Of a stretch of DNA of 64,000 bases, positions 5,442-55,434 are shown piece by piece. Position 1 is the stretch's first letter. Every line of letters starts with the position of its first letter. The DNA comes from Astrocystis sublimbata (taxonomy: Eukaryota; Ascomycota; Sordariomycetes; Xylariales; Xylariaceae). The notes under the pieces were generated by a model. That model was not told the origin of the DNA. It was given only the letters and a program-made list of their open reading frames with translations, and searched no databases. The position numbers were made by a program, and so were the translations under genes. The DNA is taken from the NCBI GenBank assembly GCA_022453515.1, contig JAJNNY010000007.1, positions 186,001-250,000 on the forward strand, read 5' to 3'.

Positions 5442-8419
5442 ATGCATTTCGCCATGGAATCAAGGGTGCTGCTGTCTCAGCTTCTGCTGTCAGCATTGGC
5501 ACACACGACCATGGCCCAAGTTGACTACTCACAGTATGTGAACCCATTCATCGGCGGATTGGGGCCTTTCGAAGGACTTGCCTGTAAGTTGTCGATCTCT
5601 GAACCCAGTGTCTGTTGCTCAAGCTAGGTAACTAACATGCGTGAAGATGGAGGAGGTAACATCTTCGGTATGTATTCCCCAGAGTCATTTATCCCCTTTA
5701 GGCAAGCCTCGGAGGTATAAATCGCCCTCAGGGGTACAAGTGCCCCTGAGACGACCCCTGAATCACATCGACCTCTTTACCCTAAAAGGCAATTACTGAC
5801 TCGAACGGGAAGTGGGCGCGGCGATGCCCTTCGGAGTGGTGAAGATGGGCATCGATACTTTGGAGCAGAATATCAGTTTCGCGACCCCTAACGGCGGTTG
5901 GACGCCAGAAGGTCTGGTCACAGCCGTCAGTATGATGCATGAGCACGGTACGGGAGGCTCACCAAAGTATGTAATTATCTTGTTGGAGTTCTTCATTCAT
6001 GTTTCTGGCAAGTGCCAAGAGCATGGATTACCCTGGACGAGTATTTGTACTCCTGAGATACTTGAAAAGCCCTCTTCCACGAGCAATCTTTTTAATATAA
6101 AAGTCAATTACTGACGCTAGCGGTATAGGTACGGGGTTGTGTCGCAGATGCCTCTCACCACCGTGGATGAGCCCGTAAATATCCTCGACAACACGACCTA
6201 TTGGCAAAAGCGGGTGGGTGACGATGTCGCGAGTGTTGGATACTATAAAACCAAGCTGGAGAACGGGGTTACGATCCAACTCTCGGGCACTCATCATGCG
6301 GGCATTGTGCAGTACGATTTCCCCTCGAGCGAAAAGCATGTGTTAGTCGACGTATCTCACTATCTACCCTCATTGTACGCCGGCGATACGGGCCAAGTGT
6401 TCATAGATGGCGAGATCAACGTAGATGGCGCTCACTACACCGGCTACACGACTACCAAGGGTGGATTCTCCTTGAGCGGTCCCTTCACCGTGTACTTCTG
6501 TGGCGAGTTCGAGACTGAGCCGGATATGGCGCGTACTTTTCGTGGCAGAAACACGCTGCCAAATTTGGGCTATCGCTCATACAGCGGTGAGCCCATCGGC
6601 CAGCCGACATTTAGCTCGAACGGGCGCATGAGCGAGAAGGCAGGGCCACTCGCCGATCGCATCGGTGCCGTGTTCACTTGGGGCGCCAATGCAACGGATA
6701 CACAAGTCAGATCACGCATCGGTATATCCATGATCTCAACGGAAAAGGCTTGCAGACGGAATTACGAAGAAATTCCATCTTGGGATCTCAACAAGACAGT
6801 GTCAGCCGCTGTTGACGTCTGGAACAAAGAAGTTTTCAGTCGCATCCAGGTACCCACCGATGAGTCCGCCAATAAGACGAACTTGAGATTGTTATACTCG
6901 TCGCTCTACATGATGCATTTGATGCCCTCTGATAGAACTGGCGAGAACCCTGACTGGGAGTCGGAAGAGCCATCTTGGGACGACTTCTATGCGATATGGG
7001 ATACTTTCCGCTGCACTGTCAGCCTGTGGCACTTGATCCAACCAAAAGCCTACGAAGGCCAGATCCGCTCCCTCATCGACATCTGGCGTCACGAAGGGTA
7101 CATGCCAGATGCTCGATCCGGCAACTATAACGGAGTAACCCAGGGCGGCAGCAATGCCGATAACATGTTGGCAGATGCCTACGTTAAGGGCCTGCGCGGA
7201 GGTATCAATTGGACCGCGGGTTACCAGGCTATGGTAAAAGATGCCGAGGTTACGCCACCCAATACTTTCTTCATATATGATCGTCTAGCTAGCGTCAAAG
7301 AGGGTCGAGGTGCGCTGGACGACTGGAAGAAGCTTGGGTATGTCAGCATCGACAACACTCGTTGCATATCTAGAAGCGTCGAATACTCTTTGAACGACTA
7401 CTCCGTGAGCGTCGTAGCGGCGGGCGAGGCCCCCAAAGATGTGGACAAGTATTTGAAGCGAGGAGCGGGTTGGCAGCGAACCTGGAATCACGACACCGAA
7501 AGCGTGAGCTTCAAGGGGTTCCTGACGCCCCGGAACTCGAATGGGACCTGGGATAATAAGGACTACAACCCTGCGAAATGCGACGGGCCTGACGGCTGCG
7601 AGTTTCGTGCCGTTTCGTACGAAGCGACGCCATGGGAGTATTCTTTCAGCATTTCACATGATATGGAGACACTCATCCAGTTCATGGGAGGCTCTGACGA
7701 GTTTGAGCGGAGACTGGACTATATTGTGAGTGTATTCCGACACGTCCAAATTCAGGACGGCAGATATTATAACATGATTAACACCATTCAGTTCCTCCCA
7801 AACACAGGGCAACAAGATCTCGGTGTTAATGGCGTAGCAATAACAACAATCATCAATCCTGGGTAAGGTTCCCTGCTCCCAAGTTCTTCCTGGTACTCTT
7901 TTAATAGAATTATGGGACTGAACTTCCAATAGCAACGAACCTGATTTCGCGACACCTTATCATTACAATTATATCAACAAGCAACATAAATCTGTGAACC
8001 AGTCACGGGCACTGGCAAACCAATACTTCGATGACACCATGCGCGGTCTTCCAGGCAACAGCGACTCGGGAGCTCTGAACACCTGGTTAGTCTGGCAGAT
8101 GCTCGGGCTCTATCCAATTTCTACGCAGCCGGTTTATCTACTAGAGTCACCGTGGTTCGCCGACATCAATGTCACCGTCAACGGAAACGCGACCGTACGC
8201 ATAACATCAGACGGCGGAGCAAAGGATCTGGGCCAAAAGGGTTTCTATGTGAAGTCAGTGAAGATCAACGGGAAAGAGTGGGACAAGAACTGGTTCAATC
8301 ATGAGGACATTATGGTAGAAGGCGGCACTATCGAGTTCTCGGTTGGGGAGGATCCCCTGGTTTGGGAGACTGGCGATGCTCCCCCGAGCCCAGGCCATGT
8401 GGAACTCAAAGACTTGTAG
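5442..8419 (+). CDS. Secreted GH92 alpha-mannosidase (5 exons)
   Basis: Proposed exons are 5442..5583, 5647..5667, 5813..5966, 6129..7862 and 7933..8419 (845 aa). The second exon is only 21 nt and encodes the YGGGNIF stretch. Residues 1 to about 25 form a signal peptide (Arg, Leu-rich core, AHTTMAQ). The mature protein starts with YVNPFIGG and continues GAAMPFGVVKMGIDT, the typical opening of glycoside hydrolase family 92. The C-terminal domain has the family motif GLPGNSDSGALNTW at about residues 722-735, containing the catalytic-site Asp region. GH92 enzymes are calcium-dependent exo-acting alpha-mannosidases, mostly alpha-1,2, acting on N-glycans or fungal mannans. An extracellular role in trimming mannose is inferred. 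Two start codons (5442 and 5454) are possible and both keep the signal peptide. Confidence 0.9.
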
Positions 8420-11400
8420 GTAAGGGTACCTGAAGTAGTACGGCTCTGCTGCTACACGCCACATGGTTCCTATGCTGTGTAGGTACCTAGGTGTAGGCTG
8501 GTCTTGTTCAACTGCGTATCAGAATGAATGAAGTGTTGGTCGAACGGCGTACTTTTATTTGTAAATGAGCGTCACCTTTTTGACCTGCAGTTGGGCTGAC
8601 CGCCGCACCGCCATAATTACCTACCTAGTAGCTAATGATGATATTTGCTTTTGTGCCAGCCGAGCCAACCTTCTCTGCTCTATGGGTTCCTTGTCTAGGC
8701 CAGAGCTATCGCATATCATAGAGCGATACTAAAAAATACCCATGACAGGTGGCGGACTGATAGTCGCAGAGAAGTACAAATCTGCTTATGCGTCGTTGAT
8801 AAGTCCAGTTTGGGCAGTGTCTCACTTTTACACCAACGAGTGTTGTCCCCGATGTGGCGACTTCGATTGACGAAATTTGCAAAGCAGGAAGATAATGTGT
8901 GTAGTCAAGATACACCTCAAGTCTTGAATTAGTTCTCTAGGAGTTCTATTCTCGTAACTTGATTAATTCACGAATGAGATTGGCTGTCTTAGCTGAACAG
9001 CATGATGAAACAATGTTTGAGCTCCGATCGAGGTAAGGATCTTCGAGACCTACCGTAATTGATTTTCACACATTAAGATTGGTGACGAATAAATGCCGCT
9101 ACGAATGTCTTCTGCGAAAGCTTGATTGTGGCTAGCAAGTCTTTTACTTCACCAGCGAAAGCGGGGTATTAATCTAGCTCTCTCCAAATCAAAATAAGAA
9201 TGCAGTTGAAAGGCTGTGTAACCTGCTCATGTCAAGTCGTAGTGCTGAACCGGAAGGGGTGCCGGTGTAAGCTGACCTGGTCACTTTCATGTAGTACAAC
9301 AATTAGCTATTCGCGATATTGCCCAGGTACCCATGCTCATGAGGTGAGAAACGAATGACACTGCCTTACCACTACCTACTGTGGGATGGCAGGGACATCT
9401 AAACTTTCACACTTCGTGTTGGGTATGTCGAAGATTCACATGCTGTTCGGGTATATGTAAAAAGCAAGAGCTGAGCGACGTGTGGAGGTGTGAGCGACAC
9501 AGTACTTGATGTGGCATCGCAGGGCAGCTCAAGTACGCTATCAAAACAGCCCTCATACGCGTTTGGTCTGTTTCTCACAATCTAGAGGGGGGCAATCGTT
9601 CATCATTAGGCTGAACGTACAGCCCGTCAAATGGACTGTTAGGGCAACTGTGTTGCGGTTTGTTACCCAGGTTTGACCATGAATGGGAAGGAAAGGGTCA
9701 GAGAAAATTCTATACATAGGAATCACTTTTTCCTCTGCATATTGCTACGTTGCAAGTCGCTTCATCAACACCGCAACCGAGAAAGTGATGAATGCTGCAC
9801 GAATGCCCCTTCAGCACCAACAGCTTCAAGGTGACTGGTCGCCTAAGATGATCACCCACGTTGGACAATCTCGGTTCGGAAACACACCCAAGAGTACATG
9901 GAGTATAGCCGAGAAGACATCGACATTGTACCATAACTCAGCGCCGCGCGTAATCAATTAGTGTAGGTCTCCTCTGACCCATGAGAATCCAATTGTTAAG
10001 ATGCCACGGCCGACCGATGACTATATTTGGAGGGCATATGCTCTGCTCATGTATGACTCGGCTTTTTCTAGCGCACCACGGCACACAACAAGAGGCTGAC
10101 AACGGTGTCAGCAACGAGTCAGGATGCTTATATCTGCTTGGCCGGGCTTCCGTGATGTTACCGTACAAGTGCATGGGCAGACTGAATGTAGATTGGTCTG
10201 GAGTAACAACCTATGGTAGCAAGAAAAGACTAGTGGTTCCTTGGATCGCGGTCAAGTGGTGTGATGCATGCGTTTTGCATTGCGTAGGAGCCGACAAACT
10301 CCAACAAATGCCTCCGGTGGGAATCCTGTCAGTGGTTAGCATCCGGGGATCGAGAACCGCATTGCATAAGTCCTCACCACGTAGCTTTTCGTTAACACAA
10401 AACCATTTATTGATGCGGCAACTCACGATGTGCAGTTGTTCCTTGGATTAAAAGCTGCCCTCGGCTGGCAAACCAAGGCACGACGAAGAGAACTGTGTGT
10501 AATGTAAAGAGGCCCGACTTGCAAGGCGTTCATGACAAGACAGTGGTGGTATGCTCAGTTCAGCTGGCTTGGCGATATCCCGGATATGCTGTTTTCTATC
10601 GCAACTGCAGAGATATTGCACAATATTGATGGCTCTACATAGATATATCGCGTAGCTACGTGAGACACAGGTGCGCCAGTTGCAGGACGACCCATACACA
10701 TGTACAATTGTTACCTGCGGTAGACGCGTGGATTAGAGGGAATAGTCAACGAGCTAGGGGCAATCACCACACATCTTCACCCAGCAGGATACCCACGAGT
10801 CTGTACCTAGCATCCAATGTATTGATCATGAGGAATCTTGGCTGCCTGCAAGTCATCGCTGACCGAATAGCTCTAAAATGACCTGGTGCGGTCAGACTTA
10901 GTCCGAAGTAGGGCGCGATATAAATTATCTTGTATTTTGTATATACAACGATGGTTTGAAGATAATATGTAATGTGTCGGTAATTGTACACAGACGTGAC
11001 TCTCTCTTATCGCAACTAGCCATGCTAGCGTACAGCATATGCTAACTAGTAAGTACTTGGGCATGCCAGGGGGCCCGGCTCGCCAGTCCAGTATTGTACC
11101 CAAGAAATCAATCTTAGGCAGGGGTCTTTCCAGCTCTCTGGGTGTCTAGATGTCTGGTATCGTTGCCTGACCCGGATAATTCCTTCAACTTCCCTCATGG
11201 AGGGTTGGTAGTTGGCGAGACCTTCGCAGCTGAGCCCTCTAACCCAGCCAGCGTCGGCTCGTGCCGGAGTGAGGCCATCGTCATCAATCCGCTGGGGGTA
11301 CTGTAGTACAGTACCGTCCGCAACGCCTCCCTCGCACGTCGCAATGATCACTCAGCTTACCACGCAGCAACATCCGCAGCATCCCCAAGGACTGCAGAAC

Positions 11401-12700
11401 GCTACCAACTTGCATAGGGAGGCCCAGGTATCTATCAGGCGATTTCAGCACTGGTCAGTCCATACTAGGAGTCTTTTCCGCCAAGCATGCAAAATGTTGC
11501 AGCGAGTGCAACCCACCACTGCGACCGTTACATACATGCAGTGAGTGTTTTGGGTGGTTCGAGATACCTATCAACTTGAGGCCTTACCTGAGCTATCTAC
11601 ATGATGCGACCTGGTCGCTTTTCGCAGGCCTTTTGCACCGAGCACATCCTGAACAGGCATCTCGAAGTGGCCGATAGGCCCAAAACCATGTGCATATATG
11701 CCATATGCACACACCATATGCCATACACCAGCACCTGTCGGGGTATTCTACGATCTTGCAGCTGCCAGAACCGATCGTAACGCAGCAGTAGCAGCAGTAG
11801 CAGCAGCCCAATTGGAATGGTGCGCTGCGGTAGGTCAGCCACAGCGCGATAGGCAATGCGCAATGCGCGTGGTCTTCGTTGGAATGCCCTGTCGTTTCCT
11901 ACACTCCTTCTGTCTGGCATCTGCTCTCTTCCCCACGATCCGCAGGATTGCACTTGAGCGTCTTCCTTTTTTTTCTTTCTTTCGTTAATCGTGGCTATGC
12001 AGTGCTTTTTGCTTGGCTTCGCACGCAACTGAGACCTCCCACTTGACCACAACTTGCATTTTTCGACCAGTATTGACGCTGTCTGGTGGTGGCGGGACGA
12101 TCACAGATCGCAAAGTGGTTGGTCGAAACGGTGCGCGCATGGCTTATCCGCCGCCTCTGTACATGATCGCAACGCCTCTTGCACTAGCATTCCAAAAAGA
12201 AAAGAGAAACACCGGCCACTCTTGGGCCAAGTCGCAGTTCATAAATGTCGGTACGCTTCGTCTGAAACCTCGATGAACTATCGATTCCGCTCCCTGGCAT
12301 TTGCGAGAATCAAAATCCCTCCGCCAAATTCTGCGAACTGTCTGTCAGACTCTGCATCAGTCGGCGCATGTTATCGGCGACTTAGACATTGCCACGGTAA
12401 GGGTATATACATCTGGTCGCAACGTCCTGGCTATTGCTAGCCAAGAAGATATCAACACGTGCGATCAGTCGGCATCGCCACCCCTACTGTTATAACGACG
12501 TAGGCTTCACAACACATCACTTGTCAGCGTGAAGATATCCCGTGTTCCTCCACGCCGCCCTGACAACCGTCCAACAATTTGACGTGGCTTGGCGAAGCGA
12601 GTAATCCATTTAACATCGTGGAAAGCAGGATCTGCAATTGTTGCCTGCATTGCGATCCTATCTATCTAAGACTGCTTCGCCAGCATAACGAGGCCTGATC
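8420..12700. other. 4.3-kb stretch without a supportable gene
   Basis: ORFs of up to about 156 codons occur (for example 9981-10451 +), but none has a family match I recognise, and they overlap opposite-strand ORFs of similar length. Copies of the TAGGTACCTAGGT motif sit near 8481-8497 and 8618-8630. A pyrimidine-rich tract around 11,965-11,990 and the GC-richer segment from about 11,200 look like promoter and 5' leader of the gene starting at 12701. No transposase or reverse transcriptase fragments are readable. Confidence 0.5.
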
Positions 12701-15700
12701 ATGTCGGGGCGCAGTGCATATGTACGGAAAAAGATCACAGAACCCAAGACTGGGGAGAAGGGCGCATCCACCGCCCGAGGGCGTTCGAAATCGAGTAGCG
12801 GCCACAACACGATCGACGATGGCTCCGTCTACGATCATCCCATACCACAAGGCACTGGATTCGGCACCACCAACGCGCGACTCCTCAAGTTTTCGGACCC
12901 GGCGCATGACGGAGAGGCTGTTCACTATCGGTCCGAGCTGGCGAACTTAGGCAGCACCAGTGGCGGAAGCCGAGGAGGTAGCCGAGGCGGTAGCAGCGAG
13001 CACGACAGGCGAGAATTGGGCTTGCAAGCTCAAGGCCCGATGCCGGATTATGCATACGCAAGAGCCCGAAAGCCAGTGTTGAAAACAGAGGACGTATCCG
13101 GCATCGAGCGGTCCGGGTTCCGCAATGCCGTGGACAAGCAAAGCAGCAATATTCGAAAGGGACTAACGAAAGCGTTCACCCTCGGACTCAAGAAGAAGAA
13201 AGAGGTCCAGTATCCAGATCGAGCTACCTCATCGGTTGCGTTGCGGTCTCATTACTACGATGCAGACGAGTTCGTCCCCAGCGGGATGCCTTCTCCGCCC
13301 ATTCATAAGTCAGCTGGTGCGATATCACGGAACATGGATCATCTGTCGGCCTTGACACCGCCCCCAGTTATAAAACTCCCTCCTGTCCCGTCTCAAACAG
13401 CACTGCCGATCAAGCGATGGGTTGGTAGCGGCCGGCCTGTGCAGAGGTGGAACAAGTTGCGAAAAGATCCCGAGTTGTGGGATCCCAACGGCGACGTCCT
13501 AGTTTATTTCGGCCGCAAGGGTCAACTACATCGTCCGAACCCATCTTTCCGGCTCTCCTCTCACATCATCGAAGCTACAGAATCTCGAGCTCTTATCACT
13601 CTGCTCCGCGAGGGATCCACTGAGGATGAATATAGCCAAATTAGTTCGCCGCCATCACCAGTCGGCGCGCCGCCCATGCTAGTACATAACAGCTATACAC
13701 ATCTAGGCCAGGCCACACCACCCACGTCCGATGATAACGCGCAGGCGGACGTGGACGGCCAGATCTCGTATGAAATGTATTTCCCTACACCCCCCAATCT
13801 CACAAAAGTTGAAGCGCAGCGCCACGCTATCACCACCCGCAACGTCTTTGCGCTCTTCTATCACGCCTCCCTGGTTGGGCTCTCTTTGTTTCAAGCGTTG
13901 CAGGATCTTCTCGAGCGGCTTAACACATACATGGAACCAGACACAGACAATGTCGGCACTATTCTCAACTACCTGTCGGCGCGGGGCATAGATGACGCGA
14001 GGAATGATCCCGAGACGGCCGTGTCGATGCTCGCGTGGTCAGAGACGCCCGGCGTGCGCTGGGAAGAAGGGTGGCGTGAAGCCTTCCTCCACTGCGCCGG
14101 TCAGTATACGCGACTTGAGGATTGTGCAGACTTCCGGCATCTGACCCCTATCACGCGAGCGTTGCTCGAGCGCGCGTGTCTCGAGACGCAGCTTCGCGTG
14201 CAGGCGGCCGAGGAGCGCTTGGCTCTCTTCACCTTCGCTGACGCCTGGGGCCCGACGCCCAACAGCAACACGGCTAAAGCAGCGGCGGAAAGACTTCAGC
14301 AGTTCTTCATCGGTCATTACTTGCGGACCTGCGGGACGTGGCCCCCCTCCGGGAACAGCGCGCATACAGCAGATGGCGAGGATATGTGGCTGACGCGGAC
14401 GATGGCGCAGAGGCTGCAAAAGGACTTTGGTGCGCTATATGACTACCTCGTGAACCGCGACGTAGTGTGGGACGAGTCGGAGATGCGCAGCAGCCGCAAG
14501 TGGATGATGGTCTCGGAGAGCGGCAACAAGTCGTTCGAGGCGGACAGCGACGACCTTCCGCTCACGGATCTGCTGATTGAGTTCGACAACCGCATGCGCT
14601 TCCCGCACATTCCGCACCCTTACCCCCTCGTGCCTGATGCGATTCCTGTAGCCTCATCGCCCCGGCCCGGCAGCGCAAGGGATAAGTTCAGGAGGGACAG
14701 GGACAGAGACAGAAATGCCAGGCCTGCCACTAGCAACGACGACCGCACGCTCGAGCGCCGTATCCAGCTCTCGTACACGGAGGCCAGCAACATCTATAGC
14801 TTGGGCTCCGAATTCGCGCACTCAGACCTCATCGAGAGCTTCGTCAAATTCGAGAAGACGGATATGATCGGGGCCGTCAACCCATTCACGGCCCGCCGGG
14901 GCCGCTGGGTCCTCATCTACGCCATCCTCCAGACCCTCGCCAGCGTCTCGGTCGACTCGCCCAACGCGCGGTACAAGGACGGCGTCGTGTACCACCTGAG
15001 TCCCCGCCTCCGGGGCACTCGCACACCACCGTGGAAGCCTGTCTCATCTACGTCCTCGTCGGCAAGCGAGGCCGCACACGAGCTGTCGCACTGCTGGGTG
15101 ATGCCGCGTACATGGAACACGGCCAGCAACGATAGCGCAGAGTCGGACGCTTCGAATGGCAGTGGTAGTGGAGGTGGAGACCCTGTCGTGCGCATGATTC
15201 GCAGCCGCGCACATAAGTTCCCACGGCCGCCGTCGAGCCGGGCCAGTCGGTCGACTCACACGACATACAATGCCCACCATACGGGCGGAGGCGGATGGCA
15301 GACGCCCTCGATGCGTTCGAGTGCCACAGCCACGCCTACAATGTGGGGAGGCTCGAGCGCCATGAGCGTCTACTCAGACGACACGGCGACGACAGCCAGA
15401 AGTAGCGGACGCATTTTGATGTCACAGTATCATCAAGGCAGTAACCACGTAGGAGGCTACATAAACAAGAACCTGCCGCAGCCCCCTCCCCAAAGTCGGA
15501 GCCACAGTCGTGGACCTGAAAGCCTTGCGCGCACCGAGCGGAGCACTACGACGTTCAGCACGGCCACCTTTGGTCCTGGGTCCGGGTTTCACAATATGCC
15601 TACGCCTATGCCCATGCCCACGAACAGCGACCGCGAGAGGATGAAGGCGGCGAATCTGCACAGCTTCCACACGAACAACGGCACTCTGACGGCGCTCCAT

Positions 15701-16072
15701 CCGCCCTCCAAATCTACCTCTACCTCCACCTCCCCTTCTACCCGCGATGGGAACCAGAACAACCCAACATGGCCGACGAGGACACAATCCATACATCGCA
15801 CGCAGCCGCCCGTTCCGCTGGATCTGCTTTCCATCGGGGGCGTCACGGGCAAGGGGGATTTCTTCGCGGATATGCCGTATACGCCGACTAGCCCCGGAAG
15901 CAAAGGGGGTGATGGCGAAAGGGATAGGGATACGGGTAGGAACAGGGATAGCTTCGTGGAGCAGTTGCCACTCTCTCTGGGCTCTGAGGCCCTGGGGCGG
16001 GGCCCCGTGATCCGCGACTTCGATGAGTTGGACTCAGTCGTGGAGGAGAGCGGGTTTGAGAATCGGATCTGA
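12701..16072 (+). CDS. Large intronless fungal protein, DUF8004-like
   Basis: A single open frame of 1123 codons starts at an ATG whose N-terminus is basic and disordered. Two ordered blocks are visible. Residues about 240-300 contain IKRWVGSGRPVQRWNKLRK and GDVLVYFGRKGQ. Residues about 375-780 are helical, with RNVFALFYHASLVGLSLFQ and, late in the block, the stretch SEFAHSDLIESFVKFEKTD, followed by a hydrophobic LIYAILQTLASVSV. The last 300 residues are Ser/Thr/Pro/Gly-rich and low complexity. I associate this arrangement with the fungal DUF8004 proteins, but from memory and without a search. No catalytic motif is apparent. A structural or regulatory role is possible, and the function is unknown. 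Confidence 0.75.
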   Translation: MSGRSAYVRKKITEPKTGEKGASTARGRSKSSSGHNTIDDGSVYDHPIPQGTGFGTTNARLLKFSDPAHDGEAVHYRSELANLGSTSGGSRGGSRGGSSEHDRRELGLQAQGPMPDYAYARARKPVLKTEDVSGIERSGFRNAVDKQSSNIRKGLTKAFTLGLKKKKEVQYPDRATSSVALRSHYYDADEFVPSGMPSPPIHKSAGAISRNMDHLSALTPPPVIKLPPVPSQTALPIKRWVGSGRPVQRWNKLRKDPELWDPNGDVLVYFGRKGQLHRPNPSFRLSSHIIEATESRALITLLREGSTEDEYSQISSPPSPVGAPPMLVHNSYTHLGQATPPTSDDNAQADVDGQISYEMYFPTPPNLTKVEAQRHAITTRNVFALFYHASLVGLSLFQALQDLLERLNTYMEPDTDNVGTILNYLSARGIDDARNDPETAVSMLAWSETPGVRWEEGWREAFLHCAGQYTRLEDCADFRHLTPITRALLERACLETQLRVQAAEERLALFTFADAWGPTPNSNTAKAAAERLQQFFIGHYLRTCGTWPPSGNSAHTADGEDMWLTRTMAQRLQKDFGALYDYLVNRDVVWDESEMRSSRKWMMVSESGNKSFEADSDDLPLTDLLIEFDNRMRFPHIPHPYPLVPDAIPVASSPRPGSARDKFRRDRDRDRNARPATSNDDRTLERRIQLSYTEASNIYSLGSEFAHSDLIESFVKFEKTDMIGAVNPFTARRGRWVLIYAILQTLASVSVDSPNARYKDGVVYHLSPRLRGTRTPPWKPVSSTSSSASEAAHELSHCWVMPRTWNTASNDSAESDASNGSGSGGGDPVVRMIRSRAHKFPRPPSSRASRSTHTTYNAHHTGGGGWQTPSMRSSATATPTMWGGSSAMSVYSDDTATTARSSGRILMSQYHQGSNHVGGYINKNLPQPPPQSRSHSRGPESLARTERSTTTFSTATFGPGSGFHNMPTPMPMPTNSDRERMKAANLHSFHTNNGTLTALHPPSKSTSTSTSPSTRDGNQNNPTWPTRTQSIHRTQPPVPLDLLSIGGVTGKGDFFADMPYTPTSPGSKGGDGERDRDTGRNRDSFVEQLPLSLGSEALGRGPVIRDFDELDSVVEESGFENRI

Positions 16073-17215: not shown

Positions 17216-18566
17216 TTACTGTCTAGCGTTGTCCTGTCTCCTCAGCTCGTCACGGAACGCGTTTCCAGAAGCGGGCGGGCGTTCCTCGGTCGGGGTCCCA
17301 GCGAGGCTGTCCAACGCGTCACTGTCGCGCCTGGGTCGGCTGGGCCGCTCAGCGGGGAGATCATGGTAGACCTCTCCGCCATCGGCCTGGACCTCACGCT
17401 CCATGAGCTGGATGCGCTCCGTCGCCTTGGCGGCCTTATTGCGCTTCCCGAAGCCGAATCGACTCTTCTTGGTGACGTCGTAGTTCCGCCCCATGGCGCT
17501 GCCGGTCTTGAGCTCGATACGACGGTGGTGGCGGTTCCATATACATGTGCCTGCGACGACGGCGATGATAAAGCCGAATACGATGGGCAACGCAATGGAC
17601 AGGACGGTGCCGGGGGCGAGCTTGCCGTGGGCATCGGCGACGGGCCCGGGGCGGGTGGTGATGTGGATCTGAGGCCCGGGTCTCTCCTGATGCTTGCCCT
17701 CAACAGAGGCGACGAGCTTGATACTGATGTTCTGAGAACCCTGGTGCAGCAGGACCTTGTCCTCCATGAGGATGCTGGTGTAGCCTGCGGCGGCGGGGGT
17801 GAAGACGGACATCAAGGCGGGCGACTCGGTTCGTTCCTCGCCAGTGGTGGAGTTGATCCAGTTGCCGACGACCTGGACGGTGGAGTTGCGGCCGCCGAAG
17901 TAGTCAGGGTCCCAGGTAACTGTGATGGGTTGGTCAGCTAGAGCGGCGATTGCGGTGGACAAACGTACAGTAATAGGTGGTGCCGATGTAGAGCGGATCC
18001 TTGCCGTCGGGCTTGCACCAAGGCGCGAACTCGCCATCCTTGTTCTGGCAGACATTGTAGGAGCCGGCATCATTCTTGCCGGTGGCAGCGGGAGCAGGGG
18101 GGGCGGAGCCGGTGCTGGTGTAGACGCCGCCGTTGCTGGTGTAGGTGAAGACGGTGGCGGTCAGGTCGTGAGGCGCGGCGGACAGAATGGTGGGAGTTCC
18201 GGAGACGGTGGTGGAGATGGGCGTGATGGTGTGGGCCTTGCCGTCGTCGTCGACGGTTACCCAGGGGGCCAAGGCACCCTCGACGGACTTGGTGTTGGTG
18301 GCCTCTGATGCACTGGTGGAGGTGGAGGTGGACTCTGGGGCATCACCCGAGGCATCTGAAGCTGAAGCAGTCGTGGTCTCTGGAGCGGTCGTGGTCTCTG
18401 AGGCGGTCGTGGTCGGTGAAGCACTCGCGGTCTCGGCAACGCTTGTGGTCGCGGTGGTCGCGGCGGTGGTCTCTGTGGCTCTGGGCCGGAGGCGCAGGGG
18501 ATTCGGGATGGCGTTCGTGGTGGCCAGCAGCCAGCTAGCCACGACGAGGGAGGTGGCTGAACGCAT
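17216..18566 (-). CDS. Single-pass surface protein, Ser/Thr-rich ectodomain (2 exons)
   Basis: Minus-strand exons are 18566..17969 and 17919..17216 (433 aa), joined across a 49-nt intron (GTACGT..ACAG). The N-terminus is a signal peptide (SLVVASWLLATTNAIP). Residues about 30-110 are a Thr/Ser/Ala/Glu-rich, probably O-glycosylated stalk. A Cys-containing block (NVCQNKDGEFAPWCKPDG) and a TYY-FTWDPDYFGG segment follow, the latter reminiscent of extracellular beta-sandwich modules. One membrane helix lies at about 303-326 (TVLSIALPIVFGFIIAVVAG), followed by a basic and charged cytosolic tail of about 105 residues. The layout resembles WSC/Mid2-type wall sensors, but no WSC cysteine pattern is present. 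A role in wall sensing or adhesion is inference. The start at 18566 gives the signal peptide directly. Confidence 0.75.
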
Positions 18567-20785: not shown

Positions 20786-22119
20786 CGTGGGCTAACGGGG
20801 CTTATATCATCTTGGTGGATGTGTCGGAGTGTTGAATTGATGGGGAGGGGTCTCGGGGCTTTTCGCGCGCGTGCGAAGCCTCGGCGGAACTGGGTGAGGG
20901 CAGACAGGATGTGGTAACAAAGGTGGCGATGGCGACGGTGAGGGCGCGGGGGTGCGGAAGAGCAGGTGCGAGAGTGTGGATGGTGTACCCAACCACAACC
21001 AAACTGAGAAGGCAGGCAGGACCCGGAGCTGTTGTCCGGAGGTATTCCAAGTCTGAATGGTTGGGCAGGTGCGAGTAGCACTCGACTGCCTGAGTGTGCA
21101 CTGCTCTTGCTCTGGATTGCCTTCTCCTTCTCCCTTCCAACTCTCTTCTCTCTCATCACTCGCCGCCGACCCTTCTATACCTATCTCCCGTTATCTGCCT
21201 GCCTACCTGCCTGCCTACATGTAGGTACCTACTCGAACTCGAGGGAAGGAGGGGGATTCGCGATTCACGGACGAAGGTTGACACAGGCTCGATGCTCATG
21301 TAGCGCAGGCGGACAGAGAGATGGCCATGTGTATCGTCGCTATTCCTCTGGTGCTCCCTCTGGTGCTCCCGCCTGTGCTCCCCGTGTTGCCTCGCTCCCC
21401 ACGATCGCAACCTATCTGGGCCGAGTCCGTAGAGAGCCAACCCTGCCACCTGCATGTAATTCGAGAGAGGTCATGTATACATGTACTTTCAATTACGCAA
21501 GCCAATGGGCCCCGTCGTTGCTCGTCGAGAGGCAATCACTAGGCGGCAAAGCTTATAAGTATAGGTAAGTGGTGATTACATACTACCAGCTACTGTATTC
21601 TCGGCGAGTCGATTTGCTGTGCTACATGTGCAAATAGACTCTGTACCTGCTTCGATTTACCCTCAACTAGGTTCGCCGGCCAGTAACACCAGACCGCTTT
21701 CACACACCGCTCAATGCATCTATGATGCCTATCATTCATTATACACCAGTGTTGCGGTCCGAGACGACTCAGAACCCGTCAGGACTGTCTTGAATACGTC
21801 GCTTGATAAGTATCTGAATTCTCGATTGAAATGATTCCATCCCCTGTTGAAAACTTCGTAGTATCTGCTATCCACGAGTAGCCTAGTCGTCCGGCGATCC
21901 CGTGAGCCGTGAGATCTCTTGTGGCTTTACTTCGCTTGTGTCAGAATCCACGACCTCGAATACAGGGCTGACCCATTGGCAACCAAATCCCAACACTGGG
22001 ATTGCGGTGAAGATGCCCAAGTACCTAGGTAGGTAATTACTTTAGTAGGTACTCAGCTATGCAAGCGCAAACTGTAACTTTAAAAGAATGCTGGTTCGAA
22101 TGCGGACAGGCGTCTCTAC
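20786..22119. other. Intergenic region with dispersed palindromic motif
   Basis: It contains the promoter of the 19541-20785 gene, with CT-rich tracts around 21,120-21,220 and a CCTGCCTACCTGCCTGCC block near 21198-21215. CTAGGTAGGTA-type motifs lie near 22021 and 22117. The 178-codon plus-strand ORF here has no protein character. Confidence 0.5.
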
Positions 22120-22902
22120 CTAGGTAAGTTCAAGAACCATGATTATTGCAGGGGGCCGTTCTAGATTTAAACCACAACGCACCCCATTCTTCCGAGCACA
22201 GATTCTCACTTTCTCAATAGCACCGAAGATCCAAGCAACAGAACTAGCATGAGAAACTTACGTCGGCTCGGGCTTGCCACGTCTATTGACATGTAAGTAA
22301 GTATAGCAAGCAGCGCTGAAAGAAAAGAATTCTCACGTTCACTTGTTCAGCATGGTACTATACGAGTTTTTAATCAGCTATGATATGATACTTTAGAAGG
22401 TTGTATTGAATCCTTACAGCGATTTGGTTCCCCGTGTCCTAGAAGGGAGAGTTAAAATGTGCTTAGAAACACATTCGCAGTAAACACTTACTCGCTTGGC
22501 GGTGATGGCGTCCTAATATCCATAATGTAAGACTTAATGTTGATGAAGACGCCTTCGCATCGGGAGGGTTGGCATATTTAACTCACGGCAAGCTTTGCTT
22601 TATGCTTCTACCCAAGAGAATAGTTAGCTGGTATCCAACACAGAGTCGCTGGGGTTATAGGCTTACTTCGAGACTGTGTTTGGCCCACTAAGTGTGTAAT
22701 ATTAGTAGCTCGTGCTATTAGATAATAGGTTTTGTGAGGTTAATACCTCCCCCGTTCCCGGTGTGGTCGTCTATACGTGTAAGAGTTAGCTTTGTCCAAG
22801 ACATAATGTAACCTTGAATCTTAACTTACCTTCTTCTTCTTCTCCTCCTCCCTTTCCTCCTCTTCCTTTGGAGGGTGGGTCGGACGCGGCGCGTGTGGAC
22901 AT
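22120..22902 (-). CDS. Micro-exon gene, small protein of unknown function (about 9 exons)
   Basis: On the minus strand I read exons 22830-22902 (from ATG), 22747-22770 (24 nt), 22667-22687, 22587-22607, 22492-22512, 22418-22438, 22337-22357, 22262-22282 (each 21 nt) and 22120-22212 (to TAG). Introns of 49-74 nt start GTAAGT/GTGAGT/GTATTA and end AG, and several have CTAAC or TACTAAT branch sites. The first three are exactly 59 nt. If exon 4 uses the inner AG at 22598 (11 nt instead of 21), the frame from ATG 22902 runs to TAG 22120 as a 101-residue protein. With the 21-nt exon 4, all exons read open in a second frame, whose start would lie upstream of 22921. Exons 5-8 (peptides DAITAKR, DTGNQIA, YHAEQVN, TWQARAD) are the same in both. 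The family is unknown to me. Confidence 0.5.
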
Positions 22903-22921
22903 GGGGCAAGAGGAGGGTGAT

Positions 22922-24081
22922 CTGAATCAGTCTTTGTAAATAGGTTGTTATTCAATGGTTCAATAGACAGAGGTCAATGTAAAAGGAATCGGAAATAAAC
23001 ATGCGATTGGATAGGACTTCGATAAATGATGGGGTAAGGGCAAGGTGTGGGAGAGACCATGAACCTACGTACATCTTCAACGTCAACTGCCTTTGCCTGG
23101 TAGCAATGTTGTTGATGCTTGAGTAAAATATGGCTTGAATTATATTATGAATACTGAATAAACAATGTGTAAGCATCAAATAGAGATAATTGATGGGCAG
23201 AGTCTGCAGTCGGTGGATTGACTTGGCATGTGGTGTTGAAAGGTGGTGTTTTCGATTGTTGATCGAGGATGATGACGAGTGGAAAATGGGAGGTCAAGAA
23301 TCTGCGAGCAGCAGTGATATGCATGCGGCACACCCCGCGGGTATTTGACTCTTCTTCACTGCTTCGCTGTTTCCTTTTATGTCTGAGATGTTATGTGCTG
23401 GCTGCCACCTTCCGACCTTTCTTCCTTCTCGTATTTACCTATATCGGAGGAAATTGGTACCAGGCAAGTGAGGAACACATCAATGCATGATGTCGCACTG
23501 GTTGTTCAAGAGCAACGAGGCCTTGAATATAGAAAGTACCTCCCTTCTCTTACCGGGTCCTTTAAATGGTAAGAGCACTCAATGGTTATGGCAATGTGTA
23601 TAGGTAGTTCGCTCTTTCAAGTTTGGTCTTCGGCATAGCCTTCACTGCTCCCCGAGTTAAAGGGTGATCCAGACCATTAATAAGTTGTTACATCAGAGTC
23701 TGTTATGCGTGGTCTCGATGCTGATGATGCTATCAATGCAGTGCGATAACCCAAAGCGAGCAGTCTCATGGCACAATGGGAATAAATCATTACTTTGCAT
23801 TGTCACGAAAGAGTGTCACAGGTTCATCAATTAGGTATCTATCTGGGTCTCAATAACTCAATCAATTCATGCTCGTAGACTACCACCAAAGCTTGCGAGA
23901 GCAGTGTAATTAATTACCCCCAGACCGATACCGACGACAAGACATATCGTGTTCCTCAAACTCTCATTTCTCAATCAGTTGTCCACCTCAAATGATCCCG
24001 ATATTCCCTCACAATGCCGACTGGCAGATCTCATGGCAAGATGCGAGCGAGAGACAAGTCCTCATGTGATGCGAGGCGAAT
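22922..24081. other. Upstream region of the micro-exon gene
   Basis: It probably holds 5' untranslated exon sequence and promoter of the micro-exon gene (possible donor GTACGT at 23069 on the minus strand), plus the 3' flank of the next minus-strand gene. Otherwise I see nothing. Confidence 0.4.
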
Positions 24082-27249: not shown

Positions 27250-28583
27250 TTTGGCGGTATTGAAGGATGGGATCGGAGGAGAGGGGCAGAAAGCAGAAAG
27301 CGAGACGGGCGCTATTTCATATATAGTCTATCTTTTGAGAAATTAGAAATTCCAGTAATGCGCGCGGACGGGGGCGGGTGAGACTGCGGTGGTGTTATGC
27401 TGGTAGTATGCTACCTTACCTACTGCGCAGAGCTCCAGGGTTGGCAGAGTGTTCCAACCCAAGAGTGGAGGGGCCGCGGCGATTTCGGCAAGGGCGAAGG
27501 TTGATTAGGTACCTAAGTACATGGGGACTTCAGGTTTGGCCTTAGTCGCTTTCGGGAAGGAAGCACGTCAGAGGGCTTCGCTATTTGATCAACAAAAATT
27601 CCTAATACTCTTCCTCATGCGTGTGACCGCCCGTAATTACTATGATACCTGCACGGAATTAATGCGCATGGCCGAACCACCTAGAAGGAAACTGAGAGCC
27701 GGGACCGTTTGGCTGTTGTTGTTTTTTGGAATCTTGTGACACCGATTTCAAATATCCTTCTTCAGCCATTCGCCTGCTCGCCTGTGTCGGTACCTTTTTT
27801 CAGGGTCTCTTTTTGTCCCCCTGATCGACCATCAACTCAGGTCCAGATAGGGCTAGACCTCTTGTAGGTATGTACCGGGGGATCAGATAGCCCCGCATGA
27901 CGAAGTCAGTTGCTTATTAAACCTTGTACCTAGGTAGTTTTCATGTGCCAAAGCGGCCCGCCGCCTCGCCTCGGGATGGCCCATGCGCCTCATCTTGCGA
28001 TGCATTGAGTTAGTTATGAATCTAACGGGGCAGACAGCGCCAGGCCGAAGGCGGACGATGGCCACACCTGAATCTGGCCGAGGTCTAGCCAGCACCAGCA
28101 AGCCATCAAGGTCCTTTGTCACATTACCTAGGTGCATGTAGGTATCATCGTAACGTCGTAACATTATTCATCAAGGAGACAACAGCGAGGATGTAACACC
28201 ACATATCTTTTTGACGAAATCAATGGAATCAAATTGATCAGTGCAAATACACGTCTTCGCATCTAGATTCAACAGGATCTTGAAGCGGCATCACACCAGC
28301 CCTCTAGCCGCCGATGACGCCCCTCCATGCCCACTTGTTAGGGTCCGAGTGATGTCGTTGCCAAGCACAAGTGACACCCTCACACCCTCACACCAATCCA
28401 CCAACTCTACGAACACAAGTACCCCTACAGGCCACCGGCTTCTCATTTCGGATTGGATTCGAACTGCCTAATATTCCAATTGTCCAGCCAATGAGAACAC
28501 ACAACATCAACTTACCACAATTGCTAAATGGCTTCCTTTTGTATTTTATTATAGCATCATTGGAAATATAGAAAACGGTCAAA
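27250..28583. other. Divergent intergenic region, TrxR and PQ-loop genes
   Basis: It includes both promoters. Copies of the palindromic GGTACCTA/ACCTAGGTA motif occur near 27507, 27927 and 28126. A TCACACCCTCACACC repeat lies near 28378-28394. No gene is seen. Confidence 0.5.
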
Positions 28584-31986: not shown

Positions 31987-34133
31987 ATGATCCAAGGCAT
32001 ATTTTACGCCAGGTTCCTTCCACAGGAAGGTGAGTTACAACCTCCCGGTTTCTTTTATAAACCTTTTACCTTTTATATGGATGGACAAATAATCAGGCAT
32101 GTCTCATTGATATCATGCCTCGAATTTTCAAGTGTTGCTCTCATCACTGATCCCTCATCCCTCATACTCAAATGAAGGTATACGCATGGCCAAGGACATA
32201 TACCGACCAATACAGACTCACAGATATATTCATAGACGAATACTAAACTGAATCCAGGCACCAAAGTTGTCGCACAATCACCACCAGGCTGCATCGTAGC
32301 CACCGAGTTCACACCGCATCTGAAACCGCCGCTGGTGGACTTCGACATCGTGCAGGAGTACATCATCCCGCGCAAGGCCTTCTTCAACCGCTTCGTGACC
32401 GTCAACTCGCCCGACGGGAAGCACAGCATCCTAGGCTTCCCCGTCTCCATCCCGCACGAGCGCTACCACCGGAACGAGTTCATATTTAACTTCGGCCTCG
32501 TCATCGAGTCCGATGTCGACCACATCCCCTACGAGCGCCTCGTGCGCCGCCTTGCCGTCACGTTCGCCGAGATGGAGCGCCAGAACGGATACCTGAGTAC
32601 CGAAGGCCTGATCAACGACGGGAGACGACCTATTGGGAGTCTGCTGGAGATTGTGAAGGAGGACCTGAATAATTACGGGGAGTGCATGATCCCCATCGGT
32701 TCGTACTTCTTCTCCCGCTTCTCAATTCCCCCTTTTCCCCATCCCATTGTAATTCATGCCTCCTAATACGTGATATCTACACTGCCACAGACGAGGCCAA
32801 CACCATCAACATGAAACTATTCCCCTACCACGCGCCCCCTCCGCCCGTCCACGGCTGGCACGTCCCCGTGCCCAAGACCAAGCTCAGCGAGATCGTCGAC
32901 TCGACCTGGGACCTGACGCTGCAGCGCATCATCCCGCACGTGGACGGCGTCAACGACGTGCGGCGCATCGCCTGGCTCGCCGACGTCTCGCTGCCCCTGA
33001 CCCAGTGCGCCCTGCAGCACCTGCTCTACTACGACACCGTCCTCCTCCTTGACATGTTCTTCTTCGGCTCCTGCTACGCCCTGCGCCCGGGCATCCACGA
33101 CTTCGTGGCCAACCGCGGCAGCCTCGTCGACGAATGCGCCGCGTATGTGTGCATCTCGCCTCCGGTACTACCGGGTGGCAGTAGTTCTGGCGGCGGCGGC
33201 GGTAGTGCAAAGAAGTCCGCGAGCAGCAGCACAATCGCCACGGGTCTCGGTATCAACGTCCCCGCAACTTCCTCTACTACAACGTCCACCTCCACCTCCA
33301 CCTCCCAGTTCCTCGACCCAACATCATCATCATCAACGGCGGCGGCCGGAGAAGGGTCCGCAGCCAGCCGTCCGACGACTTCCTCGACCATCTCAACAGC
33401 CCCACAAGCCCCCGTCTCGCACTACCAGCTGATCAAGCTCATGACGACCTTCTGCGTCGGCCGCAGCGTCATGGAGTGGGTGCGCCTGCACCAGGAGGCG
33501 GGCTTCGACGTGCTCCGTCACGTGGACACGCGCAGGCTCGTCCAGTTCGGCGTGGTCAAAGGCCTGCTGTACCGAGTGCACAAGTATGGTGTTTCCAAAT
33601 CGTACCTGACGCTCCTGGCGACGGGGAGAAGGGCGGGTGGCGGCGATATGGGAGGGGGTGGGAAGAAGGCGAGAGAGGAGAAAGCCAAAGCCATCCAAGA
33701 TGATAAGGGGAAGCAGGAGCAGAAGCAGAAGGGCAAGAGCACAGGGAAAGCAACAGATGCTGGCAACGAGCAGGACAGACAGTCGAATATCGACGACGAC
33801 GACAACGGCCTGGAGATGAAGATCAGTCGCAGACGCATGAGCAGATTGCGGGTGCAAGACATTTACGCGGATGAGTATCTCGGTGATGACAACAACGACG
33901 AAGAGTACGTGGACAGGGCGACGGACGAGGAGCAAGATGGCGGAGAGGACGACGATGGAGAAGGAGGGGAAGAGGTGGAGGACGAGGCGAAGACGCGCAG
34001 GAGAATGCAGCGGTATGTCGATGGTCGCCACGCCTTCGATCAGATCATCACCGAGCAGAATGTCACCGATGCCGAGATCATGCGGAAGCTCAAATGCTTC
34101 GGAACTAACGACGTGGCAATCTTGTATCGCTAG
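31987..34133 (+). CDS. NPR2: GATOR1/SEACIT subunit Npr2 (3 exons)
   Basis: Proposed exons are 31987..32029, 32258..32698 and 32791..34133 (608 aa). Npr2 works with Npr3 and Iml1 as the GAP complex that restrains TORC1 at the vacuole when nitrogen or amino acids are short. Diagnostic blocks are the N-terminal MIQGIFYARFLPQEG, the longin-like DFDIVQEYIIPRKAFFNRFV, FVTVNSPDGKHSILGFPVSI, and HERYHRNEFIFNFGLVIESD. DVRRIAWLADVSLPLTQCAL and the C-terminal winged-helix end (AFDQIITEQNVTDAEIMRKL) follow. Two insertions interrupt the C-half: a Ser/Thr/Ala/Gly-rich one (about residues 305-390) and a Lys-rich then acidic one (about 465-575). The first intron has a perfect TACTAAAC-type branch site. Confidence 0.94.
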
Positions 34134-34474: not shown

Positions 34475-36668
34475 TCAAATTTTCCTTTGAAATCTTTTCT
34501 CGAAGTCCGCAGTCTCGGCCTCGTTGTAGCGTGAGCGTCCTTCCGCCCTCTGCAACCGAGCCGATTTTTCGTAAGCGAGGAAATTGTCAATAGCCGCCGT
34601 TCTTTGCTCAACCGATCCCTTTGTTTCGGATTGCCACTCGGGCCGCTTGTACTGGTCGGCCCTTGGCAGCTTCACGACGTGTTTGCGCGGGAATATGATC
34701 TTTCCAGTTGTGGGGTCGTCTGGGAGCGCGTTATTCCGTTCATGCCTTATGCGCGATAACTCCTCGCCCGCGCTCTCCATCTCGTGCCTCGAGAATCTCC
34801 GCTTCGTGCTGCCGCCCGTCTCTTTCAGCAGCTGGCGCAGCTGGCGCACTTGACCCTTGCCTTGTTCTCCGGCGTAGGCCCGTCCGCTCGAGGCCCAATC
34901 CTCGTCGCTGACCATCTCGACGATGCGGATGAAGTGCTTACCTCGACGGAGGATGAGTAGCTTGCCGTCGATCAGGAAGTTCTTGGTGTCTGCAGGGAAC
35001 CAATGCTTCACGGGCGTGAAAGTCAGTTCGCCTTCCGCCATCACCGTATTGCCATGGTGCGCGCTGCGACCTGGCGCACCACCTACGTAGGCTCCCTGAT
35101 GGGCGACGAGGCGGTGAGCAGCGTTGGCGCTCTCCGCGAGACCGGCGGCGTGGAGAATGCGCGCTATTCCTTTGCCCATGATAAGGGACTCGGGGAGTTG
35201 GATGTCGGGGCGGAAACTGAGCGCACGACCGATTGTTGGAGGAGTTGTCCGATCGGGGTATGTGCCCAGTTCTTCTTCGGCCGTGGATAAGGCGGGTGTA
35301 AGTGTAGGTGTTTCATTGATTAGTAGCGTCGTGCCCTTGGAAAACATCTGCTTGTGCTGTTCTCGAGTGATCCCGGCCTGTTCAAAACTGTGGACCAAGG
35401 CGAGGACTTCGAAAGCGAGGGTGTGGTGAGCATGCCGCTTGGGAGGGTCTAGGTTATGCTCTTCCATGACCTTGGCGATCTGCTCGAGGGGCAGAAATGT
35501 GAAGAGCTTGAGCAGCTTCTCCACTTCGTCATCCGGCCTTCGCATGAAGTAGCCGTAGAGGTCGAAGGAGCTGGTCTGAAAAGGGTCGAGCCACATGGCG
35601 TTGCCGGCACTCTTGCCGAACTTGTTGCCGGCCGAGTCGGTCAACAGGGGCACGGTGAAGCCGACGGGGGTGTTCAGCAGGTCAGCGGGAATCTTTCTTT
35701 GGACGTCTGTGTCGGTGTCGCGCAAGAGCTTGACGGCGTCGATGCCGGCGACGATGTTGCCGTACTGATCAGAGCCGCCGATCTGCATGCAGACGCCCTT
35801 GGGCCCCGAGAACATCTTCCACCAATCCCAAGCCTGCATCATGGGGTAGACGAACTCGGCGAGGGAGATGCCGTCGCCTTCGCTCATCTTGCGCTTGACG
35901 GTCTCGCGGCTCAGCATGGTGCCGACGCGCATGCCCTTGAAGAGGCGGTTGACGACTTCGATGAAGGTGGTGGTGTTGTACCAGGCGCTGTTGTTGCAGA
36001 GCTCGCGGTTCCAGGCCCACTCCTTCTCGAAGCCGTAGCGGCGGGCCTGGGCGTCGACGTTCATCCACATGCGCTTGAGCTGGTAATGCATCTTGGTGAC
36101 GTACATGGTGCGATCGGCGCGGGGGGTTTCGTCGCGGGTTTTCAGGCGACCGGTGGGATCGCCGACCTTGGCGGTGGCGCCGCCGAGGACGGTGATGGCG
36201 CGAAAGCCGTGCATGTACATCCAGAACAGCGGCATCAGGGGCAGGAGGTGGCCGAGGTGGAGCGAGGAGGCAGTCGGGTCGATGCCGACGTAAGCGCCTA
36301 TGCGCTTGCGGAGCATCAGCTCACGGATCTGGTCGTCGGTGCTGCAGAGGCCGAGGGGCCGGTGACCGTCAGCAAGAATTGTCCCCATCCCGTCTATGGT
36401 TGTGGCCATTGATAGACTGTACGTACCCGGCCGTGTCCTTCACAAATCCGCGCTCTCTGAAGCTGTCCCAGAGGTGGCGCTCCTCCCCACGCTCGATTCG
36501 TTTGGCCTTCTCAGCCCAGGCCTCGTCGGCGTGACGACGCTTCTCGATAGTGCCAAGATGGAGGGGCCGGCGTTGCTGGCGGCTCGCGGCCATAGATCGG
36601 AGGAAACATGATCGACAGAGGGTCATGCGCGCCGCACTCGAAGCTGTGCGCAGAAACCGACTTGACAT
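34475..36668 (-). CDS. Mitochondrial tyrosyl-tRNA synthetase, CYT-18 type (2 exons)
   Basis: Minus-strand exons are 36668..36427 and 36341..34475 (702 aa). The N-terminus is an Arg/Ser-rich, acid-free mitochondrial presequence (MSSRFLRTASSAARMTLCRS). A charged helical extension follows (TIEKRRHADEAWAEKAKRIE). The class I synthetase core shows GIDPTASSLHLGH (HIGH box SLHLGH), GGATAKVGDPTGR, QIGGSDQYGNI and KFGKS, the KMSKS-like loop. The C-terminal half has the S4-like RNA-binding region (LLILRRGKHFIRIVEM). It attaches tyrosine to mitochondrial tRNA-Tyr. In Pezizomycotina this enzyme (Neurospora CYT-18) has also gained group I intron splicing activity through the N-terminal H0 extension and small insertions. 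The extension seen here fits that class, but splicing activity is inferred. Confidence 0.93.
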
Positions 36669-45376: not shown

Positions 45377-45865
45377 AGGTACTGGCATGCATGCCCTCAT
45401 GCACTTTTCACCTATCATTTATATACGACAGAAGACGCCCTAGGTAGGTAGAAATGGTATCATTCCACAGGTAACTTTGGTTCAATTTCTGAAGATGCGA
45501 GCATTCAACCCACTTTCAAAATGCTACAGATAGTTAGCTGCCCCGTGAGTTTGTCCTCTTGGTGTCTCCCGTTCTCTGCACGGGCAGAATCTAGGTAGGT
45601 ATGTAGCATACTAATACGAGCGCCTGCTTACCCCAGAACCATCCACGAAAGCATCTTCCTCGAGGTTGCCTTGTAAGTTGTTGCTGTAAACCTAACAGCT
45701 AGTTGTTGTTTGAATAAGGCGACCGTTAAGAGTCGGTCGAATCAAAAAAAAGTGTACCTAGCCCTACGTAGGTAGGAGGTAATAAAGAAATCTTTCCAAC
45801 TGCAAAAGGTGTCATCAGTCTTGGGGACTCCCTTGGTTACCCATCATAAGCTGGCAGGGGCCTAC

Positions 45866-45891
45866 ATGTGCCTAGGTACCTAGGTAGGTTA
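45866..45891. repeat. Tandem palindromic motif (CCTAGGTACCTAGGTAGG)
   Basis: Two overlapping CCTAGG palindromes are joined by GTAC. It is another dense instance of the dispersed intergenic motif. Confidence 0.65.
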
Positions 45892-54924: not shown

Positions 54925-55434
54925 GGTTCGGGATGGTATGGGGATGGTATGGGGAGACAAGCTTATGCTTCATTGTCGACACCGAAGGCATGTTTGTGTT
55001 GCACTTAACTTAAGTATACCTTAAGTACCTGGGTAGTACTAGGAGATAGATTGGTCGAACAGAAAGTGGTTGTATTGGGAGAGAATCTACTGTGTGGGCT
55101 AGGCATCTAGGGTGTGCCTGTAGGCTTAATTACCTACCTTTCAGCATACTCAAAAATGGAACCGGACCTGATTGAGAGGAGAAAAGAATGCCCTCGGGGG
55201 AATCCACCGCTCCCTCTAGTTGCTTCAAGAGGGTCCAACACCTCGGGCTAGCCACACATTGTCCTTGTCGTCGAAAACATCAGGCTGCAATGCCACTGGC
55301 TTGACCCGAAGTGACATCAATAGAAGACTGTAACCTGACATGGGCTTTGACGAAGAAAAGAGAGTCACGAATCATTTAGTCTGCCTGTATCTTGTCGCTT
55401 TCCTTGTAAAAGCATGGACACTGGAACTCCTTAG
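54925..55434. other. Promoter of MFS gene and 3' flank of F-box gene
   Basis: 510 bp of non-coding DNA with an ATACCTTAAGTACCTGGGTAGTAC motif variant near 55017-55038. No gene is seen. Confidence 0.5.

Follow-up and report, generated by a model that had tools for sequence, protein, structure and literature searches.

A putative micro-exon gene with a row of 21-nucleotide, phase-0 exons in the filamentous fungus Astrocystis sublimbata

Introduction

The micro-exon genes (MEGs) of schistosomes are described, in the accessible part of that literature, as built from symmetric exons of 6-36 bp that make up about 80% of the coding region and as encoding products almost all of which are secreted or membrane-anchored (PMC5825161). 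The bicycle genes of aphids form a large family with about 17 exons per gene, almost all of phase 2, and are marked by CYC motifs, as far as the available account goes (PMC9168663). A third animal case is the vertebrate muscle gene TNNT3 (troponin T), in which the 5' alternatively spliced exons form a run of one phase class that has been ascribed to exon shuffling (PMC2447309, in part). Among fungi, functional micro-exons are stated, in the available part of one report, to have been previously undescribed in filamentous species before a regulated 20-nt exon was found in Trichoderma (PMC11121469). The Phanerochaete chrysosporium P450 genes also contain micro-exons, coding for 2-10 residues, together with frequent introns of 45-55 bp (PMC1184071, in part).

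Here we describe a locus of Astrocystis sublimbata that lies on the minus strand of the window, the whole 64-kb stretch of contig JAJNNY010000007.1 that was analysed. The locus resembles the schistosome MEGs in its short symmetric exons, so that skipping keeps the frame (excerpts of PMC5825161), but differs from them in a uniform length of 21 nt, a micro-exon share of ~60% of the coding sequence, a single DNA copy and no evident signal peptide. With the bicycle genes it shares poor sequence homology and numerous internal exons that are unusually small and in one phase (excerpts of PMC9168663), but it has nine coding pieces and one DNA copy, and the CYC motif is absent from its translation. The original prediction had drawn an analogy to these genes, which is weakened by the phase: 0 here, as against 2 in nearly all bicycle exons according to the same excerpts (PMC9168663). 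The Xlr2 micro-exon of Trichoderma virens is likewise a filamentous-ascomycete micro-exon overlooked by gene prediction; unlike the symmetric 21-nt row reported here, it is a single exon, its 20 nt not being divisible by three, in a zinc-cluster regulator (PMC11121469, in part). In contrast to the present locus, the P450 micro-exons lie in large enzyme genes, and the accessible text describes no uniform run (PMC1184071). In TNNT3 the heptad-coding exons are the 3' ones rather than the same-phase 5' run, as far as the available part of the account states (PMC2447309).

Results

Exon-intron structure

Rebuilding the exon chain from the sequence gave one 24-nt exon followed by six 21-nt exons between 22770 and 22262 on the minus strand, in agreement with the original prediction. 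These exons form part of a gene model with nine coding pieces (E1-E9), all on the minus strand:

23069-23074, minus strand: E1, coding part of the likely first exon, ATG TAC, followed by donor GTAGGT
23068-22932, minus strand: I1, 137 nt, donor GTAGGT, acceptor AAG
22830-22931, minus strand: E2, 102 nt, proline-rich then glutamate/lysine-rich, open in phase 0
22747-22770, minus strand: E3, 24-nt micro-exon TTTPGTGE; the intron before it has GTAAGT, GCTAAC and TAG
22667-22687, minus strand: E4, 21-nt micro-exon WAKHSLE; the intron before it (I3) has the weak donor GTATTA, 1.5 bits
22587-22607, minus strand: E5, 21-nt micro-exon KHKAKLA ("exon 4" of the original prediction)
22492-22512, minus strand: E6, 21-nt micro-exon DAITAKR
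22418-22438, minus strand: E7, 21-nt micro-exon DTGNQIA
22337-22357, minus strand: E8, 21-nt micro-exon YHAEQVN
22262-22282, minus strand: E9, 21 nt, TWQARAD, followed by GTAAGT
22283-22829, minus strand: I2-I8 with the exons between them, seven short introns whose best-scoring branch adenine lies 14-17 nt before the acceptor end

The introns of this ladder, I2-I8, measure 59, 59, 59, 74, 53, 60 and 54 nt, and all seven end in a TAG acceptor. The claim that the first three are 59 nt each was thereby borne out, and the proposed range of 49-74 nt held for 53-74 nt only, the 49-nt intron after E9 requiring a GAG acceptor. All nine coding pieces are divisible by three and, when translation starts at 23074, every junction falls between codons (phase 0), which gives an open frame of 86 codons and a coding core of 258 nt; as had been foreseen from the exon sizes, exons could in principle be skipped without loss of frame. 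Eight of the nine pieces are 6-24 nt long and symmetric, together 156 of 258 nt when E1 is counted with its 6 coding bases and E9 as 21, and were any one of the seven ladder introns retained, the reading frame would be shifted or meet a stop. Around the 21-nt exons, splice-site scores are moderate to strong with the exception of the I3 donor (GTATTA), which together with I1 (GTAGGT donor, AAG acceptor, longer than the other introns) provides the weakest sites of the gene model. Five of the 21-nt exons (E4-E8) are bounded by introns on either side. The "up to six" of the original prediction is reached with E9, whose end at 22262 depends on splicing at the GTAAGT that follows, a donor for which no acceptor is convincing; otherwise this exon is 39 nt long and contains the stop.

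The probable start of the gene, 23074, lies outside the range 22120-22921 covered by the original prediction; it is favoured because all junctions are then of phase 0. The alternative ATG at 22902, whose frame the original prediction had followed, was rejected: from there the 21-nt version of E5 runs into a stop, and an 11-nt version, besides requiring an AAG acceptor within E5, would no longer match the other exons in length. The two frame options formerly offered for this exon therefore arise from the out-of-frame ATG at 22902, and the start at 23074 removes the doubt, making the 11-nt option unnecessary. The true start is nonetheless uncertain because an in-frame ATG lies upstream at 23176. 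It would add 34 residues, mildly hydrophobic and with no acidic residue; the frame upstream of 23176 is open to 23293, and the 34 codons have a GC content of 0.34, a value nearer to leader or intron sequence than to the exons. The leader (23324-23074, minus strand) has further ATGs at 23324, 23229 and 23176, the last of them in the frame of the gene, and these are possible starts of upstream reading frames or of a longer N-terminus.

At the other end, the E9 donor GTAAGT is perfect; reading through it gives VSFSC and a stop, with a last exon of 39 nt that ends at 22244, and splicing to a TAG acceptor at 22161 gives NGPLQ and a stop, further acceptors being possible and none convincing. Downstream of E9, the ~260 nt examined contained no further micro-exon that combined a YAG acceptor with a donor scoring at least 4 bits. 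The first of the frame-open chain searches described below ran on past E9 to a 30-nt exon behind a GAG acceptor, which was judged weak. The gene would thus span about 23074 to about 22100-22244 on the minus strand, with both the N- and the C-terminus uncertain.

Tests of the exon ladder against chance

Candidate introns were scored for donor, branch and acceptor against a filamentous-ascomycete consensus taken from general knowledge, identical for locus and controls, and chains were sought in which introns of 45-85 nt surround exons of 9-36 nt. The sample consisted of the 64-kb window and 20 stretches of 10 kb from the same contig (264 kb, both strands), a small part of the 1.18-Mb contig and the 42.6-Mb genome, and shuffles of the whole 264 kb preserved dinucleotides within 1-kb blocks. 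When chains were required to be frame-open (multiples of three, phase 0), the locus ranked first in the 264 kb with a score of 59.7 versus 26.5 for the next chain, and 59.7 was reached by none of 400 shuffles (0 of 100, maximum 40.4; 0 of 300, maximum 49.4). A Gumbel fit put the rate of such a score at ~5e-5 per 264 kb; over 42.6 Mb, ~0.008 would be expected. The chain recovered by this search begins at I4, omitting E3 and E4, because the I3 donor falls below the cut-off, and it includes two weak introns added after E9, one of which uses a GAG acceptor. The firm part of this chain, I4-I8, scored 47.3 alone, a value reached by one of 400 shuffles. In a stricter search, limited to YAG acceptors and to donors scoring over 1 bit, the chain recovered was precisely I2-I8, and its score was 66.7 versus 27.6 for the best chain elsewhere and 38.0 for the largest of 200 shuffles; the cut-offs of this search and phase 0 had been chosen with knowledge of the locus. 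With the frame condition dropped, the chain at the locus was ordinary (60.1, reached by 97 of 300 shuffles).

The lengths of the exons were also compared with the shuffles. The locus contains a run of five exons of equal length under either set of cut-offs (E5-E9 under the first, E4-E8 under the stricter one). Under the first cut-offs a run of five occurred in none of 400 shuffles and a run of four in two, and under the stricter cut-offs 200 shuffles gave at most three. For the in-phase lengths of the seven ladder exons alone, the chance value is (1/3)^7 = 0.0005. A plus-strand chain at 45598-45818 with two 21-nt exons (24.6) and the other micro-exon chains of the 264 kb had scores within the shuffle range and were taken as chance.

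From I2 to I8, the branch adenine lies 16, 15, 17, 16, 14, 17 and 16 nt from the acceptor end; the branch of each intron was taken as its best-scoring hexamer, and its position is no part of the chain score. Among 3067 shuffled candidates scoring at least 12, 11% fall within 14-17 nt and 12% within the fullest four-base range. Real candidate introns of the 264-kb sample scoring at least 21 have the branch at 12-16 nt in 19 of 40 cases, so that the spacing in the ladder is close to that of strong candidates.

Coding signal and predicted protein

The micro-exons have a GC content of 0.56, versus 0.38 for the introns. A codon score trained on 2594 codons from six genes with Pfam matches assigned +0.20 per codon to the six 21-nt exons when read in frame 0, as compared to -0.34 and -0.86 in the other frames. 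Nearby sequence in which no gene is known was divided into 2026 overlapping pieces of 126 nt; 448 of these were stop-free, and none reached +0.20. Taken singly, E2, E3, E5 and E8 had slightly negative codon scores.

The predicted product has about 90 residues: a proline-rich head is followed by a glutamate/lysine stretch and then by a tail of 42-50 residues that is prone to form a helix. From the favoured start at 23074, inspection by eye revealed no hydrophobic stretch and no evident signal peptide, which, together with the lack of a second DNA copy, leaves the suggested likeness to secreted, diversifying effectors unsupported. A probable intracellular location, with action through the helix by binding or oligomerisation, is a guess. 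The reading of one heptad per exon, also part of the original prediction, found weak support: helical periodicity reached p ~0.04 over the 42 residues that the six 21-nt exons encode, and heptad position 6 across E4-E9 is occupied by L, L, K, I, V and A, a weak hydrophobic seam. The exons are mutually dissimilar, both as peptides (p 0.14) and in DNA identity (p 0.56), values that lend no support to a recent duplication of an exon-intron unit. The intron cores gave a mean z of ~0, with a best pair at z 2.6 among 21 pairs, and an old duplication of the unit is conceivable.

Homologues, copies and genomic surroundings

A DNA search of the 42.6-Mb genome matched only the locus itself, indicating one copy. 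In the protein-level genome search only the E2 part of the locus was matched, because exons of seven residues cannot match singly, and diverged paralogues made of such exons would be missed by it. The protein database gave no candidate for the micro-exon protein among proteins of ~47-150 residues and 10 among those of ~120-380 residues, none at an E-value of 10 or better. Pfam, NCBIfam, Rfam and PDB yielded no relative at usable E-values (best Pfam 0.16, best NCBIfam 0.028, far below curated cut-offs), and in a scan of viral contigs 22 stretches fitted the pattern, of which none was confirmed. A literature search on fungal micro-exons, consecutive micro-exons and 21-nt exons, which covered few subscription papers and some sources in part, brought up no comparable fungal row. 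Within the limits of these family and literature searches, the statement that no standard fungal family has such a build held.

The same protein database contains many Xylariaceae proteins as well as A. sublimbata's own Psg1-type neighbour protein (100%), which has matches in many other Xylariaceae at lower identity. Since this database gave nothing for the micro-exon protein, the gene model is probably absent from the annotation of the species and, in recognisable form, from that of annotated relatives. Small exons are frequently missed by annotation, according to the accessible parts of two reports (PMC8831610; PMC11121469), and the silence of the database therefore does not show absence. 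The gene could be lineage-specific or unexpressed. The Psg1-type gene is one of several ordinary conserved neighbours in the window:

6121-7866, plus strand: GH92 gene
17216-18160, minus strand: Psg1-type gene
32673-34133, plus strand: NPR2 gene
34475-36439, minus strand: tyrosyl-tRNA synthetase gene
39750-41651, minus strand: Vps53 gene
49750-51171, plus strand: amidase gene
53224-54969, minus strand: MFS transporter gene

The window further contains an 1127-codon open frame without a Pfam match (12689-16072, plus strand) and, upstream of the locus, the end of a minus-strand gene (24500-24082) which, after an apparent short intron, has a tail rich in tyrosine, serine, asparagine and glycine as judged by eye. 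On its other side the locus is flanked by an ORF at 20791-19541. The palindrome TAGGTACCTA occurs at 18 sites with at most one mismatch in the window versus 0.96 expected (e.g., 8480-8489, 21222-21231, 27506-27515 and 45873-45882), and has 1502 exact sites in the genome versus 99 for the reversed control word.

Discussion

Consensus splice sites, a common frame, regular branch positions and codon bias are directly present at this locus. We consider it to be a real, probably unannotated protein-coding gene of A. sublimbata with a product of ~90 residues, whose tail is encoded by one 24-nt and six 21-nt phase-0 pieces, and assign this reading a probability of roughly 0.7. As judged from sequence, the ladder very likely exists as a coding structure, an unusual one among filamentous fungi.

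Fungal introns in the size range of 53-74 nt are thought to be recognised as units. The spliceosome would accordingly take each 53-74-nt ladder intron as such a unit (intron definition), in which case exon size would not be limiting. Since a 21-nt exon offers no room for two complexes simultaneously, adjoining introns would leave in turn. This applies to the ladder an argument made for plants, in the available text of one report, that micro-exons are unable to carry complexes for both flanking introns, which are then removed successively (PMC8831610). Most mRNA would include all exons. Were one 21-nt exon skipped, exactly one heptad, about two helical turns, would be lost, with frame and helical register unchanged. 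A further reading, a heptad-cassette gene in which each 21-nt phase-0 exon stands for exactly one helix heptad and the skipping, gain or loss of a cassette alters the length of the helical rod while frame and register are kept, is doubtful. If true, no row of equal, symmetric micro-exons would have been described from a filamentous fungus before this one, within the literature examined, and the fungal spliceosome would process seven short introns one by one over exons of 21-24 nt.

Several other explanations were weighed against a regularly spliced coding gene. It is unlikely that the locus is a MEG of the schistosome type, in which symmetric exons are alternatively skipped to give many protein variants. 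Such use would be compatible with the build, all coding pieces being symmetric and of phase 0 so that the skipping of any internal exon keeps the frame, and a single 20-nt micro-exon is described as a switch in another filamentous fungus in the part of that report available (PMC11121469). However, the moderate-to-strong splice sites, that of I3 excepted, speak for regular inclusion, a signal peptide is not evident, the DNA search revealed no second copy, and pieces of at most 36 nt make up ~60% of the coding sequence (156 of 258 nt) as compared to ~80% in schistosome genes, according to the excerpts cited (PMC5825161).

Less probable still is a recently arisen or decayed locus that is spliced without yielding a useful protein or is no longer expressed. 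The lack of a homologue, the low complexity of E2 and the slightly negative codon scores of E2 and E3 would fit this explanation, but a frame open over 86 codons and seven ladder exons in one phase, at (1/3)^7 = 0.0005, argue against it. A non-coding RNA with several introns, the common frame of its exons being accidental, is very improbable: splice signals alone are no proof of coding, and the chain without the frame constraint was matched by 97 of 300 shuffles, yet the equal lengths, the common phase, the codon bias in the right frame and the GC contrast between exons and introns all count against it. Twin introns (stwintrons) misread as introns around tiny exons are hardly credible, even though they are known from the right fungal group (Hypoxylaceae and Xylariaceae; PMC12403724, in part) and a split donor can be read at E4 (G before I3, TGGGCC after it), since for the [D1,2] type that was checked, in which the donor of the external intron is interrupted after its first base by an internal intron, the junction bases at the other micro-exons forbid such a split and the reading at E4 would take one base from E3 and break the frame.

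If transcripts confirm the protein-coding gene proposed here, it would be a fungal counterpart, presumably separately arisen, of the animal genes composed of small symmetric exons. It would also provide a test of how an intron-defining spliceosome deals with exons too short for two complexes. The micro-exon gene was unfound by protein search while a neighbouring protein is annotated, and it may represent a class of genes missed by standard fungal annotation; whether there are further genes of this kind might be seen if genomes were searched for exon length and phase instead of protein similarity.
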